The notes below the pieces were generated by a model, which saw nothing but the letters and a program-made list of their open reading frames with translations, had not been told where the DNA came from and did no database searches. A stretch of DNA of 64,000 nt, from positions 868,001 through 932,000 of the forward strand of contig NW_024881588.1 in the NCBI RefSeq assembly GCF_019059575.1, in the 5' to 3' direction. The first letter of the stretch is position 1; each line of letters begins with the position of its first letter. Below, in pieces: positions 3,701 through 60,917 of the stretch. This stretch comes from Amphibalanus amphitrite (Eukaryota > Arthropoda > Thecostraca > Balanomorpha > Balanidae). The translations under genes were made by a program, and so were the position numbers.

Positions 3701-5324
3701 AGGCGGAGACGCTGCTGCGGCGGGCGCTGGACGTCCAGGCGCAGCTGGGAGTGCCGAGCGACCACCGCGACTCGCTGGTCACTCGGCTCACGCTCGCCAG
3801 CCTGCACACCTACTCGAGCACGCAGTACCTGCTGGAGGCTGAGCGACTGATGAAGGCCGCGCTGCGAGACTGCCGTGAGTGGGGGATAGGGGATCGGCAG
3901 CCTGGCCGGGGCTAGCAGAGGAGGCGAGGGACTGGCAGCTCGGCTGGGGCCAGGTCTGCAGAGGAGGCGAGGGACTGGCAGCTCGGCTGGGGCCAGGTCT
4001 GTAGAGGAGGCGAGGGACGGACAGCGAGTTGGTAACCCTCCGGTGGTGTGGGATACACCCAAACTAGTCTGGATAATAGTTTGATCTAGTGCTGCATGCT
4101 TTATCGGTATTACTTACGCTTTAGCGGTAGAAGAATGGCCCAATTAGGTAGTTTTTCATTGGTGTGAGGAGTTAGAAATGATTGTACATTTTGGGTACAC
4201 GCGTGACGCACGTTAGAAGTAGACCAGAATGGCGATGGCAGTCTGCCCTAAATGAGCCGAACAGACGAACCTTCTCGGTTGTTGGAAGTGCATCTAGTGT
4301 GCCAGTCCACTGATACACCCGGTATCGCTCAGGGTTCCAACGTCAGGACTTACACCCCAATCCCGCTGGTCAGCCACATATCCGTTAGATATCGTGGACT
4401 GGCGCTAATTTGACGCATTTTAACCGCTGGAGGGCGTGATGTGGCCGGTTAGGTCCTGACCGGCCGTGTAGGCTGCCTCCTTTTTAGGACAATCGCCGTG
4501 TGGCTCAAAGGAGGTCGAGCTGATAGTCATATGTTGGTAGGGATCGGGTGATTTATATTACGGCGGTGCGGGGCCTTGTAACCCTGACGATAGCGAAAGT
4601 TGCATTAATCAATTAGGTGAGACGTACAGAAGTCATGATGCAAACCGTGGAGCTTGGTGATGATTGAGGATGATACGAGATAATTATTACCAGTTTAGTT
4701 TTCTCCAAAAGCCGGCACTTATATGACGTTAAGCCGTCTTTGCACATATATTTGTGTCTGAAATTATCTTCGACGCAATGGTTTCAGTTAAAATGCTGAA
4801 GTTTTTCTACAGTTGACTTCCAGGCTATGCCTCATGCCTTTTTACTGCTAGTTTCTTTAGTCAGCAGCGCTAGAAACCGTAAGTAGCATCTGTAGTCGCT
4901 GCATGCAGTAGTGTTAGTCGGATTTAACACACCCACCTCCCCGCTCGGGCCCGTGGTAATAACGGCCCTGCCCGTACGTGTTCTGTGTGTGTGCGTCCCA
5001 GACGGCGGCGGTCACTGGCGGCACCTGGATCTGGCCGAGCACTGTCTGCGCGGCCTGTCGGCCATCTACGCGCGCCACGAGGACGCCCAGCGCGCCGCCG
5101 ACATGGACGACCTGCTGGAGACGGTGCAGGCTCTGCGGCGCCGGCTCGCCGCCCAGAGGCTGCCGCCCGAGGGACTGGCCGCCCTGCTGCCGCCGCGGCC
5201 CTGGAGCCAGCGCGAGATGAGGCACCAACTCATGGCGGCGCTCCGACGGGTGGCGACGGTGGTGCGGCCCGACAAACTGACAGTGGTGACGCCTCACGGA
5301 CTGACGGTGGTGACTCCTGAATGA
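708..5324 (+). CDS. APPBP2: APPBP2-like TPR protein (CUL2 substrate receptor), 3' eight exons
   Basis: Exons are 708-831, 1226-1391, 1765-2028, 2420-2547, 2804-2943, 3196-3353, 3685-3874 and 5002-5324 (stop TGA 5322-5324). Every junction is AG...GT and the phases agree throughout, giving about 497 residues. The order of conserved blocks follows vertebrate APPBP2: FLCEMGWHEDG matches the family's FL..AGW block, HPQTLAAARVLGDFALL matches HPKYSDTLLDYGFYLL, SLVTRLTLASLHTYSSTQYL matches the last TPR, and LRGLSAIYARHEDAQ matches the final helix. In the family this is a TPR protein that recognises C-terminal degrons for CUL2 ligases and also binds APP basolateral sorting signals. The human protein has 585 residues, so roughly the first 125 are coded upstream. 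The sequence is strongly diverged and alanine/leucine-rich, and the residue-level match is from memory, not alignment. Kinesin-light-chain relatives are the main alternative. Confidence 0.8.
3915..4018. repeat. 43-bp tandem repeat in the last intron of the APPBP2-like gene
   Basis: Two complete copies and one partial copy of a 43-bp unit start at 3915, 3958 and 4001; the first two are nearly identical. The rest of this intron (3875-5001) shows no other structure that I can name. Confidence 0.85.
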
Positions 5325-8141: not shown

Positions 8142-9662
8142 CAGTAGGCGGAACTATGGTCAAGCGTACCCATTTTCGGGAACGCATTTTCGTTCCCATG
8201 TTTGGGAACGATAAACCCAAATATGGGAACGCCATGTAGGCATTATTTAAAACAAGAAAAAGAACCGTTAAATGACGTCCAAAAAATATAAAACGATCGT
8301 GAACCGCCTGATCGTTGTCTCAATATTGTTGGGAAAGAGTTTGATATTGTAAGGCCCATCGTAGTTTCAAATCGTTCCCCTATTTCTAAAGCAGTCCATC
8401 ACCCGGGCCGCGAGCCCAAATTTGGGAACGCTCTCGTACACTGGCGCTGCAAGCGTTCCTTATTATGGGAACGGCGTACCCAAAATTGGGAACGATTTCA
8501 CCGACGCCTTTCAGGGGCTCTTTTCATTAACAAGCATCACGTCCAACGCCGCAAATTATTGGTAACGCAACAATCATCAGATGACCTTTCCGGCAAGACC
8601 GTTGCATGTTTCGCCCGGTCTTCTGCGCTTTTATTCCCGTCGATCTCGCAGCGGGCACGCCCCCCTCTGCAGGATTACGTAATCCACAACGCTCAGCGAT
8701 GTTCAACAAGGTCTTCCATACCTATATCCACCGTCCGCGCCGAGGGTGGAGACATGTCAAGCACCTGTCTGCTAATCACCGAGAGTTGACGAGCACAAGA
8801 AGTATCCAAAAATGGGAACGCTGAATATGTTACACCCTCAAAACACCTAGTCCCAATGAAAATCTAGTTTTTTCCTTTCTTAATGAGTGAAAGTGGCAAA
8901 AGGCCTGGTAGGATGGGCACGAGGAATGATCGAAATCAGCATAAAAATTATAAATAAGCCACACAGAGCGACCTATATCAGAGAAATTCCCCCCAAACGA
9001 TCATGCTTAGAAACGCCGAAGACAAAAACCACGCTCATGACGCTGCTTATAAAATAACGCTAAACAGCTAGCATCCAAATAAAATATGTCTTTCCGGGCT
9101 GATAAGATACAGCTGAATGATTTTAAACCACTGAAACTGAGTTTACAACAGTAGTTCGGTAAAATCACTGACGTTCCACGCGGTCGTGCGCCCCGACACC
9201 AAAAGTCAACAATATTACCTCGGGACTGTCCGCGTGTTCGCTTGCATATGTCAGCATCTGGTGTCGCTAGAATGAAACTTCATAACCAGGCGAAAATTAT
9301 TATACTTGACCTCAAAATGTAAAAAATGCTTCATTTTCCTTTAAATTGCATGTTAAATGTCGTATAACCCATATTTCCACCATTCTGTCATTTTTAAAAA
9401 ATCATTAAAAATATCATTCCACGGTCAATTTCCTTGTTCCACGGTCAGATTAAAGATAACTTTATGGAGATTTAGTAGATACTTAAATCAGCGTGCACTT
9501 TTTTGAGACGTGATGCACTTTTGAGTTTTAGTGGGCGAACGGCCGAAAAATTGCCTTCCGTTCTCATAAATGGGAACGCCCGTTCCCATATTTGGGAACT
9601 CCGTTCCCAAAAATGGGAACGTTCCTATATTTGGGTACTCATGACCATAGTTCCGCCTACTG
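8142..9662. mobile_element. Non-autonomous DNA transposon, GGGAACG family, copy 1
   Basis: The 1521-bp element is bounded by roughly 31-bp inverted repeats beginning CAGTAGGCGGAACTATGGTC, with about 29 of 31 positions matching. It is flanked by the direct 4-bp duplication AGTT (8138-8141 and 9663-9666). Both ends and several internal places carry copies of TGGGAACG and its complement CGTTCCCA, often as paired inverted half-sites a few bases apart; these look like subterminal binding sites. No transposase frame is present. A nearly identical copy lies at 59400-60917 with a different 4-bp duplication, which confirms both boundaries. The superfamily is uncertain: 4-bp duplications occur in Chapaev, Sola1, Ginger and some Academ elements, but the CAGTAGG ends do not let me choose. 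Confidence 0.9.
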
Positions 9663-19683: not shown

Positions 19684-21520
19684 TCCATATAAGTAATTCG
19701 CGTACAGCGTACAGCAATCATAGGCGGCGGAACGGGAGGGCACCGGGGCACCGTGCCCCTTTGATTTTGGCATTTTTTTAACTGAAGGTGTTCCGCCGCT
19801 ACTGACAGCAATTCGCGTACAGCCCATGTGTGCTGTCGAGTATTATTGCAATTAATTGTATGAGGCTTGAGTTGTGGTAATGTCACAATTTATGTAGCCT
19901 TTCTGATGAAAATTGACGAATTTTGAAGCAGTGTGGAAACAAAGTTGTATAGTTTTCTCTCTATTCTGAAAAAAATGACAAGTTTTCATTGATTTAGGGC
20001 GCTGCAAGTTTTGTTTTTGTCCCAACTGCCCCGTTTGGATCCGAAAGCGTTCGTTTATTATTTGAGAAGCAAAATATCAATCGTCTTTCACCATACTGTG
20101 CTATCATTGGCGATTGGCTTTTTTAATTATTTCGTTCGTCTGTTTTAATCTGTCCCACAACTACAGTGTCTCTTAGTTATTTTAGTATTTGATAGCAAGA
20201 TCATTTATTTTATTTCTTACTTTCACACCACTGGCATATTTGTATCGTATTTCTGTCACCCAGAGGAGCCACTGACCGAGTGGCGGGGCCGGTCCCGTGA
20301 CAGGCCCGGCGTGACGGTCAGTTTTTCTCCCGAGATTCAGTTCGGAGAATCCGCCGGCGGACGAACCCTAATCGTAGCTGACTGGCTGAGAGCGGAATGG
20401 AGCGGCCAGAAGCGGCACACCTCGGCGAAACTGCGCCACAAAGGCCGCAGAACGGGGAGACGGGGAGGCGGCGGCGCCCTGAGAGATGACTGGAAATGGA
20501 CGCCACCGAACTGGGGATTTAACCGATTGATGCGGCCCCGTCCCACTCCTGGCTCAGAATAGATCTCTAAGAGGGAGCGCAGGGAGAAAATATTCGGTTC
20601 CACGAAAGCGAAGAGCCGGCGGGCCTTTTTGGGCCTGGCGGTTGCCTAATGGACAGTTGCGTGTATCACAGAAATGCGTTGGGCAATACTGGTGGGTACA
20701 CACTGACCTTGGCCAAAGCATCCACCCGTGTAATTGTGTAGACACGTCGGGGCACTTCTATTAGATGATTCAAATCTACGTGACCTTTATTGGTATTTCA
20801 GCCTTGAATAGTAATCTAGCCACATTTATCAGACCAAGTTCACAAGTGCGTGCCTAATGTGCGATCTGCTTGAATGTTTCTAAATGAAAAAGGAAGTAAT
20901 TGGAGCGTTTTCGTTAAAAACTGTCATCGCACTTTCAATATCAGCAATAATCACACGCAGATCTGTCCATCCCATGGTCCACATCGCCTCCTTCCCCATA
21001 CGGCGCGGCGCCGATATGTTTTACGAGTCTCCGCCCGGGGGACAGAAAGCGTGTCCGACGTTTTTTCTTCTCCTGTCGACGACCCCGGTCAGCGACCTGG
21101 TTTGTAACACTTTCACCAGTCGGTGGGCCGGGCACCGGCGACCGAGCCAGGAGTCCCGACGGATGGCGCGCGCAGGGACGGCTCCGTCACCGCTACCGCC
21201 GAGGACGACTGCCCTGACCTGCCCCAATGGTGGGGCCGTCACGATACGATCTCGGCCCGCCGCCGCCGCCGCAGCGGCAGCAGCAGCAGCAGTAGCAGCG
21301 GCGTGCGTGCGTATGCCCTCGGGGACGCGATTGGCACGGGTAGTATGAAGGGAGGCTGTGCGAGCCGATGGGACTGCAATTTTTTTCAAGTTCTTGGCAT
21401 GAGGCGTCGGGCTCAAATCATTTTAAAAAGCTTCTATGTATTTTTGTTAAGTAAAAAGTATTTTCACACGCCACTTTTCTATTTCCCGTCTCTGCACTAA
21501 TTATAAGGCCCCCGGCGTCC
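19684..21520. other. Intergenic with two GC-rich islands
   Basis: GC-rich patches at about 20260-20640 and 21000-21350 keep several frames open. The second includes a CGC/CAG triplet run near 21255-21305 that gives poly-Ala, poly-Ser or poly-Arg according to frame. Neither has a recognised domain or a convincing exon boundary pair; both could be promoter islands or first exons. Confidence 0.3.
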
Positions 21521-45007: not shown

Positions 45008-45397
45008 GCGCCACCCAGCCGCTGAAACGGTCGCCCCAAAGTTGAAGTGAGGTGATGAAATCTGCACTCCCACTTCGAGCAGGTGGTCTGACTGTCAGCC
45101 CCGACAACAAAACGTGATAATGGGTGGAAATGTTTAGGCAGGACGGATAAATGTCTACTTTTGGACTCTGGTTCATTTCCACGTAACCATTTCATTTCAC
45201 GTCTCCTATGATCGCTCTCGGAGTCGGCTCTAACGCCGTATTGTTCCCTCGCAGTAGGACGGTACGCAACTACCTTGGATTTTATTTCCTTCAAAATAGC
45301 ATGCAAGGTTTAGCTTAATTCTTTTCGTTGGTCAGTTGGCTTTTCCATCATGTAGGTATATGTGGCCTCAGGACTTTGCGCTTCGGTCAGTGGTAAG

Positions 45398-47200
45398 GAT
45401 TACGTGACAAAAGATCGTAAGACAAAAGATCGTATGGAAAAAGATCGTACGAAAATGATCGTAAGATAAAGATCGTATGTTGTAAAAGATCGTATGGTAA
45501 AAAGATCGTAAGCAAAAGATCGTAAAGCAATTGATCGTATGCAAAAGATCGTACGAAAATGATCGTAAGATAAAGATCGTATGTTGTAAAAGATCGTACG
45601 ACAAAAAGATCGTAAGCAAAAGATCGTAAAGCAATCGATCGTATGAAAAAGATCGTAGGAAAATGATCGTAAGATAAATATCGTATGTCGCAAAAGATCG
45701 TACGACCAAGGATCGTAAGCAAAATATCGTAAAGCAATGAATCGTACAAAAAAGATCGTAGGAAAATGATCGTAAGATAAAGATCGTATGTTGTAAAAGA
45801 TCGTTCGACAAAAGATCGTAACGTTACGTTCGTAAAGTAAATAATCGTATTGAATAGTGTTGTTACGAGCGAGCGAGCGCAGCGAGCGAAGCGAAGTCTT
45901 TTGAATATAACGGGAAAATCTCAGTATGAGCGGCCCGGCCCGGCCTGTAACGCTTTTGAGAGGCTTATATCTCAGCAACCGCTGAACCGATTGGCCTGCG
46001 GTCTTTTTTTGCTGGGTAGCCCCATCCCTTCTTCCCCGTAATTGACTACTTTTGATACATCTCAGTGGCCGTCGTGGCACGTGCCACGTGAGAAGTCAAG
46101 GGTGTTCAAGCAGTTTTGCAAAAGTAATGATTTTGAGAGGCCCATATCTCAGCAGCGGCTTGAGCGATTGTCTTGCGGTAATTTTTATAGGGTAGCTGCA
46201 TCCCTTCTACCAAAGGTCGGATACCCTTGATCTATGTGAGTGACCCCCAATGCACGTGCAAAATACAAAAAGAAGAGGTGCCAAATTTGTTCCCATTTCA
46301 GCAACTCGGTAATTACTGGGGCGATTTCGAACCAATGATGGACAATTAACATCTTTAACCGGCCTATAACTAGGATTGGATTGACACTAGGATCCTATAA
46401 CTAGGAGAATTGCGACTTCGATAGTGATAACGCGATAAACATCTGTTGATGACTCGTAAAGCGATGACGATTCAATATGAAAATGTAACAGTGCGAAGGA
46501 AAAAGTATTTTTAACGCCGTTTACTTCAGCCGCTTAAGCAACATTTTAACCTTCCAGGCGGTGGGGGGTGGGGGGGGGGGGGGGGAACATGGGTTTAGTT
46601 GTGTTCACTTCAAATAGGTACATGAAAACGGCAGCACATACATTCATTTATTCGGCACATATACAGCGCGTTGCTTTTAGGTGTCATTGAGCCATCTAAG
46701 CTCTGAAATAACATCAATGTATGGTCGAGCTTACGACGGCCACTTACTACGCGAACACAGAAATTGATGAGCTTTGTAGGCGCTGGAGTTGGGCTGCACC
46801 ATGTGAATACCATATTTTGACTGTACGATCTTTATCTCATACGATAATTTGGCGTACGATCATTTTCCTTGACGATCTTTAGCGAATACGATCTTTTGTC
46901 CATACGAGCATTATGTCGTACGATCGTTATCCATTACGACTTTTTGGCATACGATCATTTTCCTTGACGATCTTTAGCGAATACGATCTTTTGTCCATAC
47001 GATCATTATGTCGTACGATCTTTATCCATTACGACTTTTTGGCATACGATCATTTTCCTTGACGATCTTTAGCGAATACGATCGTCCATACGAGCATTAT
47101 GTCGTACGATCTTTATCCATTACGATATTTTGCATACGATCAACTGCCTACGATCTTCTGCCATACGATCTTCTGCTTTACGATCTTTTGTCCGGTTACC
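45398..47200. mobile_element. Fold-back DNA transposon built from GATCGTA repeats
   Basis: The 1803-bp element is flanked by the exact 8-bp direct repeat GTGGTAAG (45390-45397, 47201-47208). The outermost 23 bases of the two ends agree at 19 positions as inverted repeats, with the inner 15 (GACAAAAGATCGTAA) identical. The left arm (to about 45850) holds about 29 ATCGTA words spaced 10-20 bp apart and organised in a higher-order unit of about 104 bp. The right arm (about 46825-47185) has the same word in reverse orientation with a unit of about 95 bp. The central part contains two diverged copies, about 180 bp apart, of a GAGAGGC..ATATCTCAGCA segment, a GAGCGAAGCGAAG patch at 45870-45900 and a G run at 46562. 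There is no transposase; the long arm frames are repeat artefacts. The architecture matches Foldback (Drosophila) and TU (sea urchin) elements. Confidence 0.85.
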
Positions 47201-47208
47201 GTGGTAAG

Positions 47209-53078: not shown

Positions 53079-53881
53079 AACCTTGGTACGTCACCTGCGA
53101 CGGCGACGTCACCTGCGAGTTCCGCGGAACCCCTGACGCCGTCACCAGCTGGACCATCCGCGGCACTGGACCATCCAGCGACGGCCGTGACGCCGTCACC
53201 AGCTGGACCATCCGTGGCACTGGACCATCCAGCGAAGGCCGTGACGCCGTCACCAGCTGGACCATCCGCGGCACTGGACCATCCAGCGACGGCCGTGACG
53301 CTGTCACCAGCTGGACCATCCGCGGCCCTGGACCATCCAGCGACGGCCGTGACGCCGTCACCAGCTGGACCATCCGCGGCCCTGGACCATCCAGCGACGG
53401 CCGTGACGCCGTCACCAGCTGGACCATCCGCGGCACTGGACCATCCAGCGACGGCCGTGACGCCGTCACCAGCTGGACCATCCGCGGCACTGGACCATCC
53501 AGCGACGGCCGTGACGCCGTCACCAGCTGGACCATCCGCGGCCCTGGACCATCCAGCGACGGCCGTGACGCCGTCACCAGCTGGACCATTCGCGGCACTG
53601 GACCATCCAGCGACGGCCGTGGCGTCGACTCTGCCAGTGCCGGAGACGACGGCGACGTCACCTGCGAGTTCCGCGGAACCCCTGACGCCGTCACCAGCTG
53701 GACCATCCGCGGCCCTGGACCATCCAGCGACGGCCGTGACGCCGTCACCAGCTGGACCATTCGCGGCACTGGACCATCCAGCGACGGCCGTGGCGTCGAC
53801 TCTGCCAGTGCCGGAGAGGTCGGCGACGTCACCTGCGCCGCTGGTGTCAACACCGCATGGACATCAGCTGCGAGCTGGTAA
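53079..53881 (+). CDS. Possible Ig-like exon containing a 54-bp minisatellite
   Basis: A polypyrimidine-cag acceptor ends at 53078. The frame read from codon 53081 gives PWYVTCDGDVTCEFRGTPDA, followed by the repeat DAVTSWTIRGTGPSSDGR. C-E-F-R-G-T-P then W twelve residues after the Cys resembles the B and C strands of an immunoglobulin domain. The GDVTCEFRGTP block occurs twice, separated by nine repeat copies, with GVDSASAG closing each series. In this frame codons are C-ending like real genes nearby. The frame stops at 53881, or could splice at gtaaac just before. No transmembrane or signal sequence is visible, and other frames and the minus strand are also open because the unit is a multiple of three, so coding status is uncertain. 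Confidence 0.35.
53135..53791. repeat. 54-bp minisatellite, 9 + 2 units
   Basis: Nine head-to-tail units start at 53135 and recur every 54 bp to 53620. A 63-bp spacer follows, then two more units at 53684-53791. Units begin GACGCCGTCACCAGCTGG and differ at only a few sites (for example GGCACT versus GGCCCT). The near identity indicates recent expansion or homogenisation. Confidence 0.95.
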
Positions 53882-59004: not shown

Positions 59005-59247
59005 AGGACAATTCTTATGGCATTTCTTCGTATCGCAATTCTTCGTCTGCAAATCTTCGTCAGGGCATTTATTCGTACCTATCGCATTACTTTGTCTCGC
59101 ACCAGGGTATATGAAAATCGGCTCGCATTTCTTCTTCAACGCAAATATATGCAAGAGTAAGCATTGAGGGACAAATAAATACACCGACGAAGATTTGTAG
59201 ACGAAGAAATGCGGACGAAAAATTGTGCTACGAAGAAATGTCATGCG
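59005..59247. mobile_element. Small fold-back element built from TTCTTCGT repeats
   Basis: The 243-bp element is flanked by AGGATTCC (58997-59004) and AGGATTCG (59248-59255), a 7-of-8 match. The left half carries TTCTTCGT or ATCTTCGT words about every 15 bp (GGCATTTCTTCGTATCGCAA, CAATTCTTCGTC). The right half carries the complements (GACGAAGAAATGCGGACGAA). The two halves align as imperfect inverted repeats. It has the same plan as the GATCGTA element at 45398 but with a different word. Confidence 0.65.
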
Positions 59248-59399: not shown

Positions 59400-60917
59400 C
59401 AGTAGGCGGAACTATGGTCAAGCGTACCCATTTTCGGGAACGCATTTTCGTTCCCATCTTTGGGAACGATAAACCCAAATATGGGAACGCCATGTAGGCA
59501 TTATTTAAAACAAGAAAAAGAACCGTTAAATGACGTCCAAAAAATATAAAACGATCGTGAACCGCCTGATATTTATCTCAATATTGTTGGGAAAGAGTTT
59601 GATATTGTAAGGCCCATCGTAGTTTCAAATCGTTCCCCTATTTCTAAAGCAGTCCATCATCCGGGCCGCGAGCCCAAATTTGGGAACGCTCTCGTACACT
59701 GGCGCTGCAAGCGTTCCTTATTATGGGAACGGCGTACCCAAAATTGGGAACGATTTCACCGACGGCTTTCAGGGACTCTTTTCATTAACAAGCATCACGT
59801 CCAACGCCGCAAATTATTGTTAACGCAACAATCTCAGATGACCTTTCCGGCAAGACCGTCGCATGTTTCGCCCGGTCTTCTGCGCTTTTATTCCCGTCGA
59901 TCTCGCAACGGGCACGCCCCCCTCTGCAGGATTACGTAATTCACAACGCTCAGCGATGTTCAACAAGGTCTTCCATACCTATATACACCGTCCGCGCCGA
60001 GGGTGGAGGCATGTAAAACACCTGTCTGTTTAACACTGATAGTTGATGAGCACAAGTAAGTATCCAAAAATGGGAACGCTGAAATGTTTCACTCTCAAAA
60101 CACCTAGTCCCAATGTAAATCTACTTTTTTCCTTTCTTAATGAGTGTAAGTGGCAAAAAGCCTGGTAGGATGGGCACGAGAAATGATCAAAATCAGCATA
60201 AAAATTATAAATAAGCCACACAGGGCGACCTGCATAAAAGAAATTCCCCAAAAACGATCGTGCTTAAAAATACCGAAGGCAAAAACCACGCTCATGACGC
60301 TCCTTAAAAGCAATGCTTAACAGCTAGCATCCAAATAAAATATGTCTTTCAGGGTTGATAAAATACAGCTGGATAATTTTCAACCGCTTAAACTGAGTTT
60401 ACAACAGTAGTTCGGTAAATTCACTCACGTTCCACGCGGTCGTCCGCCCCGACACCAAAAGTCAACAATATTACCTCCGGACCGTCCGCGTCTTCGCTTG
60501 CATTTGTCAGCATCTGGTGTCGATAGTATGAAAGTTCATAACCAGGCGAAAATTATTATACTTAACCTCAAACTAAAAAAATGCTTCGTTTTCCTTAAAA
60601 TTGCATGTTAAATGTCGTATAACCCATATTTTCAACATTTTGTCATTTTTAAAAAATCATTAAAAATATCATTCCACGGTCAATTTCCTTGTTCCACGGT
60701 CAGATTAAAGATAACTTTATGGAGATTTAGTAGATACTTCAATCAGCGTGCACTTTTTTGAGACGTGATGCACTTTTGAGTTTTAGTGGGCGAACGGCCG
60801 AAAAATTCCCTTCCGTTCTCATAAATGGGAACGCCCGTTCCCATATTTGGGAACTCCGTTCCCAAAAATGGGAACGTTCCTATATTTGGGTACTCATGAC
60901 CATAGTTCCGCCTACTG
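59400..60917. mobile_element. Non-autonomous DNA transposon, GGGAACG family, copy 2
   Basis: Same 1.5-kb sequence as 8142-9662, in the same orientation, with only scattered substitutions and small indels. The flanking direct repeat here is ATAT (59396-59399, 60918-60921), unlike AGTT at copy 1, so this is an independent insertion rather than a segmental duplication. High similarity indicates recent activity, with the transposase supplied from elsewhere. Confidence 0.9.

Follow-up and report, generated by a model that had tools for sequence, protein, structure and literature searches.

The DNA analyzed here, a window of 64,000 nucleotides from Amphibalanus amphitrite, contains a 1803-bp element (45398..47200, plus strand) whose arms are arrays of one short word, GATCGTA. 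The ends of the element are common to 43 further copies, and 19 of its 23 terminal bases are inverted. It lies between exact copies of the 8-bp target-site duplication GTGGTAAG (45390..45397 and 47201..47208). The left terminal motif is GATTACGTGAC (45398..45408, plus strand) and the right terminal motif reads GGTAACCGGAC on the minus strand (47190..47200); given that the two motifs are unlike, the ends are asymmetric.

The left arm (464 bp; 45398..45861, plus strand) holds 30 words that match GATCGTA with at most one mismatch, at a spacing of 14–17 bp, and the right arm (378 bp; 46823..47200, minus strand) holds 22 such words, spaced mostly 14–16 bp apart, with some word slots of its ladder degenerate in the window copy. 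The words are oppositely oriented in the two arms and number ∼52 per copy. Exact matches in the left arm amount to 28 for ATCGTA, 29 for TCGTA and 24 for GATCGTA; the corresponding reversed strings in the right arm (TACGAT, TACGA and TACGATC) occur 17, 22 and 15 times. Elsewhere in the window, only one such 7-mer was found (TACGATC at 21245). Tandem Repeats Finder (TRF) and word spacing resolved the left arm into 4.0 copies of a 104-bp higher-order unit of seven words each (45408..45821, plus strand), and TRF resolved the right arm into 3.4 copies of a 95-bp unit (46823..47142, minus strand). The features from which the original prediction had argued, namely an exact 8-bp duplication, inverted ends matching at 19 of 23 bases, about 29 copies of ATCGTA in one arm with reversed copies in the other and periods of about 104 and 95 bp, were thus confirmed.

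The core between the arms (45862..46822, plus strand) lacks a transposase frame. In L048/L049, L062 and L063 its place is taken by other sequence, which agrees with the window copy at no more than 117 of 930 core bases. A module of the core (approximately element positions 466–932) was also observed at L041 (6095–6950) and L045 (912–1394) with no GATCGTA arms nearby; the core therefore contains a repeat with an independent life.

The host genome comprises 807.6 Mb in 2644 contigs. Among the 40 candidates scored of 3327 in a DNA search of the host's own genome, full and partial copies were found, most with 91–98% identity. With up to three mismatches allowed, genome-wide counts were 163 for the left-end 24-mer and 204 for the right-end 25-mer, and neither occurred when read backwards as a control; 128 of these left ends and 100 of these right ends were listed. 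The family loci examined numbered 48, the window included, and both ends were present in all of them except L019, L021, L040 and L046. Given that L029/L030, L033/L034 and L048/L049 each have common flanks, the 44 two-ended copies correspond to 41 sites. An exact duplication was observed in 34 of the 44 copies, comprising 8 bp in 17, 9 bp in 15 and 10 bp in 2, and the remainder had either 9 bp with one mismatch (4 copies) or no duplication (6 copies). The element ends were identical irrespective of the length duplicated. The second copy with the same ends and a new duplication that had been sought was therefore found many times over, the 44 including the window copy, and the proposal of a Foldback-like mobile family held. 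At L043, the upstream flanking octamer GCCACTAA recurs 10 bases past the other end of the element, and this copy has a changed left terminal motif. The base preceding the left end was G or C in 96 of the 128 left ends listed (p = 2.5e-9, against the 49% G+C of the window).

The length of the duplication bears directly on the class of element. In the hAT and P superfamilies the duplication is fixed at 8 bp, and the TU elements of sea urchins, which have long arms of short repeats, likewise make an 8-bp duplication. Here, 9 or 10 bp was found in 17 of the 34 exact duplications, and a superfamily with a fixed 8-bp duplication was rejected on these grounds. The likeness to TU that had been drawn from a fixed 8-bp duplication was lost in the same way, whereas the long arms of short repeats, compared by description, remain TU-like. 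The 8–10-bp spread fits Mutator/Phantom better than a fixed 8 bp. In the available text of PMC6446971, duplications of 8–10 (8–11) bp are given for the Phantom group of Mutator-like elements (MULEs), and the 8, 9 or 10 bp found in 34 of the 44 copies of the GATCGTA family corresponds to that range. Long inverted arms of tandem repeats also place the family in the Foldback class.

Further evidence came from other transposons in this genome. L058, L065, L066 and L067 are Phantom-type transposons of 2117–2192 bp with foldback arms, flanked by duplications of 8, 9, 9 and 9 bp, respectively, as read by eye. Their arm word, ..GGTCTAGTG.. (CTAG), is repeated 8–10 times per arm at a spacing of 14–17 bp. 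Of these, L065 and L066 were scanned with Pfam, and in both a single open frame carries FLYWCH and MULE domains; L058 and L067 have shorter frames. In all four elements, CTAG starts 19, 34, 49 and 63 bases from both ends. In the GATCGTA family the words start 16, 31, 46 and 60 bases in from either terminus, which puts the C of GATC at 19, 34, 49 and 63, and the end layout, a terminal motif followed by words at 15/15/14 spacing, matches that of the local Phantom elements. When aligned without shift to the Phantom 5′ end, the right end of the family agreed at 30 of 72 terminal bases (best of 61 offsets; equaled in 1 of 10000 shuffles) and the left end at 25 of 72 (best of 61 offsets; 51 of 10000 shuffles). 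Agreement with the Phantom 3′ end was weak, at 23 of 72 (rank 4 of 61; 222 of 10000 shuffles) and 26 of 72 (rank 2; 49 of 10000 shuffles). From register and sequence together, the GATCGTA family and the local Phantom elements are read as sharing what would be a single end architecture in which the word has diverged. The CTAG elements otherwise differ from the GATCGTA element in having 8–10 words per arm, a length of ∼2.1–2.2 kb and a transposase frame.

The common register could also mean that the transposase of the local CTAG-word Phantom elements itself moves the GATCGTA family, with no lost partner involved. Open frames are available for this, and both register and duplication class are the same; the words (GATCGTA versus GGTCTAGTG) and the terminal motifs differ, however, and such cross-mobilization is considered unlikely.

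Between subfamilies, words have changed about half as fast as spacers, and after insertion the two have changed equally. Within the main family (36 copies, omitting L030, L034, L038, L049 and L059 and the subfamily sequences L048, L062 and L063), changes were found at 182 of 12781 word positions (1.42%) and 263 of 16735 spacer positions (1.57%; p = 0.31). In subfamily L062, by comparison, the values were 17/315 for words and 59/454 for spacers (p = 0.0005); in L063, 23/336 and 55/458 (p = 0.016); and in L048, of which the right arm gave no usable alignment, 3/70 and 10/96 (p = 0.24). Direct comparison of L063 with L062 gave 7/147 word and 23/171 spacer changes in the left arm (p = 0.011) and 13/154 and 24/214 in the right (p = 0.48). 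As the word mask was slid through 14 shifts from −6 to +7, the minimum rate fell at 0 (42/672 versus 112/891, ratio 0.50). The suggestion that the word is retained as a unit was supported. Because words were picked by their resemblance to GATCGTA, the change seen in them is somewhat too low, and the lineages compared are few and not independent. With these qualifications, the result speaks well, if not conclusively, for a role of the word in movement.

The same arrays could be merely homogenized tandem DNA, with unequal exchange or conversion, and not binding, preserving the word. Higher-order units are indeed present, and both gain and loss of whole units were observed, with the left arm longer by 104 and 102 bp in L033 and L034 (one insertion common to both) and the right arm shorter by 95 bp in L022 and L023. 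Homogenization nevertheless accounts poorly for the sharing of one word among units of an arm that have unlike spacers, for its sharing between arms built of 104- and 95-bp units, and for the slower change of words between subfamilies set against equal change after insertion, and it is judged improbable as the explanation of the word. With respect to the proposal that the arms grow by unequal exchange, the whole-unit changes speak for it, and the uniformity of most copies does not: the left arm measured 463–465 bp in 28 of 36 copies and the right arm 381–382 bp in 30 of 43. Such near-uniform lengths imply that most copies seen today descend from a source whose arms were already complete. The accompanying claim that the arms expanded separately stands, given that they are built of different units.

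A binding-site reading calls for a transposase, and MULE genes are present in the genome: a search with PF10551 that scored 150 of 204 candidates gave at least 111 hits. None of these hits was found by eye to lie inside an element starting at any of the 128 of 163 left ends listed, although a diverged partner could escape a comparison of this kind. As a positive control, the CTAG family was compared in the same way, and 11 of its 33 left ends had a MULE hit no more than 2.5 kb away. The nearest hit was at C327 (L059), where a FLYWCH..MULE gene lies ∼0.9 kb outside a complete 1161-bp GATCGTA element, with FLYWCH and MULE in two separate open stretches (2151–2816 and 4111–4458). Since these exons fall outside the complete element, C327 was rejected as an autonomous copy. 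The idea that inserts in longer or split copies are autonomous was also rejected. When the family loci, eight longer end pairs among them (L047–L050 and L061–L064), were searched by tblastn with one FLYWCH exon and the longest frame from each of 10 MULE loci (a MULE frame in all but L056), only L059 was matched. By eye, the insert frames resemble nested repeats, a reverse transcriptase and a mariner-like piece. The long relative predicted to encode a transposase between GATCGTA arms was thus not found in either the MULE or the tblastn search.

An alternative is that the Foldback element belongs to a different superfamily with 8–9-bp duplications, chiefly Merlin (IS1595-like), and that its arms converged on this layout. 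Merlin duplications are 8–9 bp, IS1595-type genes exist in the genome (21 hits to PF12762, with all 28 candidates scored), and the GATCGTA arms enclose no transposase seen so far. None of the 21 hits, however, was found by eye inside elements at the 128 of 163 left ends listed, the nearest (C235) lying 4 kb outside, and the word register agrees with that of the local Phantom elements; a Merlin origin is accordingly regarded as very improbable. Given that neither MULE nor IS1595-type hits were found inside, the family is non-autonomous within the reach of these searches, which covered MULE and IS1595-type transposases. Given also that a non-autonomous family may lack its own transposase, membership of Phantom remains inferred.

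Comparison with known systems indicates which parts of this design are new. In Galileo, a Drosophila transposon of the P superfamily, the duplication is 7 bp. The available text of PMC3688188 describes zinc finger footprints on three sites in the long Galileo arms; repeated transposase-binding sites in arms are the point of likeness, which rests here on putative sites and crosses superfamilies. Closer parallels are Muta1 and Muta5, Phantom elements of Aedes aegypti, for which the portion of PMC5225508 at hand gives an 8–10-bp terminal motif followed by 12–15-bp subterminal repeats ∼15 bp apart, and for Muta1 duplications of 8 or 9 bp and coding copies. The GATCGTA family resembles them in its terminal motif and ∼15-bp-spaced repeats, in 8–9-bp duplications and in non-autonomous derivatives with unlike interiors, the unlike cores of its own copies bringing those of Muta1 to mind. 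It differs in having 30 and 22 words per arm compared with nine repeats of another word, in the higher-order units of its arms, of which that portion of PMC5225508 makes no mention for Muta1/Muta5, and in that no coding copy was found in the searches run. Tm1 of root-knot nematodes, a Mutator/Foldback element with a Phantom-like transposase, comprises MITE-like and coding members (PMC3169594, as far as its available text goes). Like the present family, it has asymmetric end motifs (7 bp in Tm1) outside the inverted repeat and arms of a short motif (14 bp in Tm1); unlike it, Tm1 has 1–9 units of another motif per arm, 9-bp duplications and a coding member. Tetris of Drosophila virilis, according to the available part of PMC4079207, is also an apparently non-autonomous Foldback element with tandem-repeat arms, but its repeats are 220 bp long and occur as satellite DNA as well. 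The statement that no described family with this word is known stood in part: the word is not known from a described family, whereas the architecture of the ends is known from Muta1, Muta5 and Tm1. New by comparison are the word itself, its copy number (30 and 22 in the arms of the window copy), the higher-order arrangement and the word-versus-spacer evidence. Among the literature matches listed for GATCGTA and transposons, none was by title about an animal transposon, and the family may nevertheless have been published already.

Taken together, the GATCGTA family is probably a non-autonomous Foldback-type Mutator/MULE family, most likely of the Phantom (Muta) group, with words that would serve as transposase sites. 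In the mechanism proposed, a FLYWCH-MULE transposase encoded elsewhere would bind the GATCGTA words, from those at 16, 31, 46 and 60 (counted from either terminus) onward along the 14–17-bp ladder. It would pair the two arms and cut at the terminal motifs, and insertion would proceed through an 8–10-bp staggered cut. Whole 104- or 95-bp units are now and then gained or lost by the arms, presumably the way in which they grow, and the core is replaceable cargo. A more general reading, plausible but tentative and slightly less likely than not, is that the arms of Phantom elements act as a ruler. The transposase would need a site at 16/31/46/60 from each end; as its zinc finger changed, families would come to differ in the sequence of the site (GATCGTA, CTAG and perhaps TTCGT at 59025–59236) but not in this register. 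Selection on the word would then act in source elements only, and in the GATCGTA family an array of sites would have either expanded beyond its own transposase gene or persisted after that gene was lost.

Apart from the word evidence, the element is an ordinary passenger transposon. According to the available text of the 2013 Galileo paper (PMC3688188), a binding role for tandem repeats in Foldback and Phantom elements had at that time yet to be tested. One genome here offers a natural test, with a large non-autonomous family, subfamilies in which the word has resisted change and Phantom elements with an open frame; the latter provide a comparison pair in which another word stands at the same distances from the end as GATCGTA. 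The site number, spacing and letters of a Mutator-type transposase thereby become directly testable.

Other repeats were observed in the window, in which Rfam at gathering thresholds gave no match anywhere. Two arrays of 21-bp period with the common consensus unit CCGTTCCCATAAATGGGAACGC lie 51 kb apart (9558–9621 and 60813–60876), and 12 copies of a 54-bp unit form an array at 53134–53792 in which several frames are open. At 59025–59236 there is a short foldback-like pair of a third word, with TTCGT starting at 59025, 59040, 59054 and 59070 and reversed ACGAA at 59187, 59201, 59215 and 59230, a 14–16-bp ladder like that of the GATCGTA arms.
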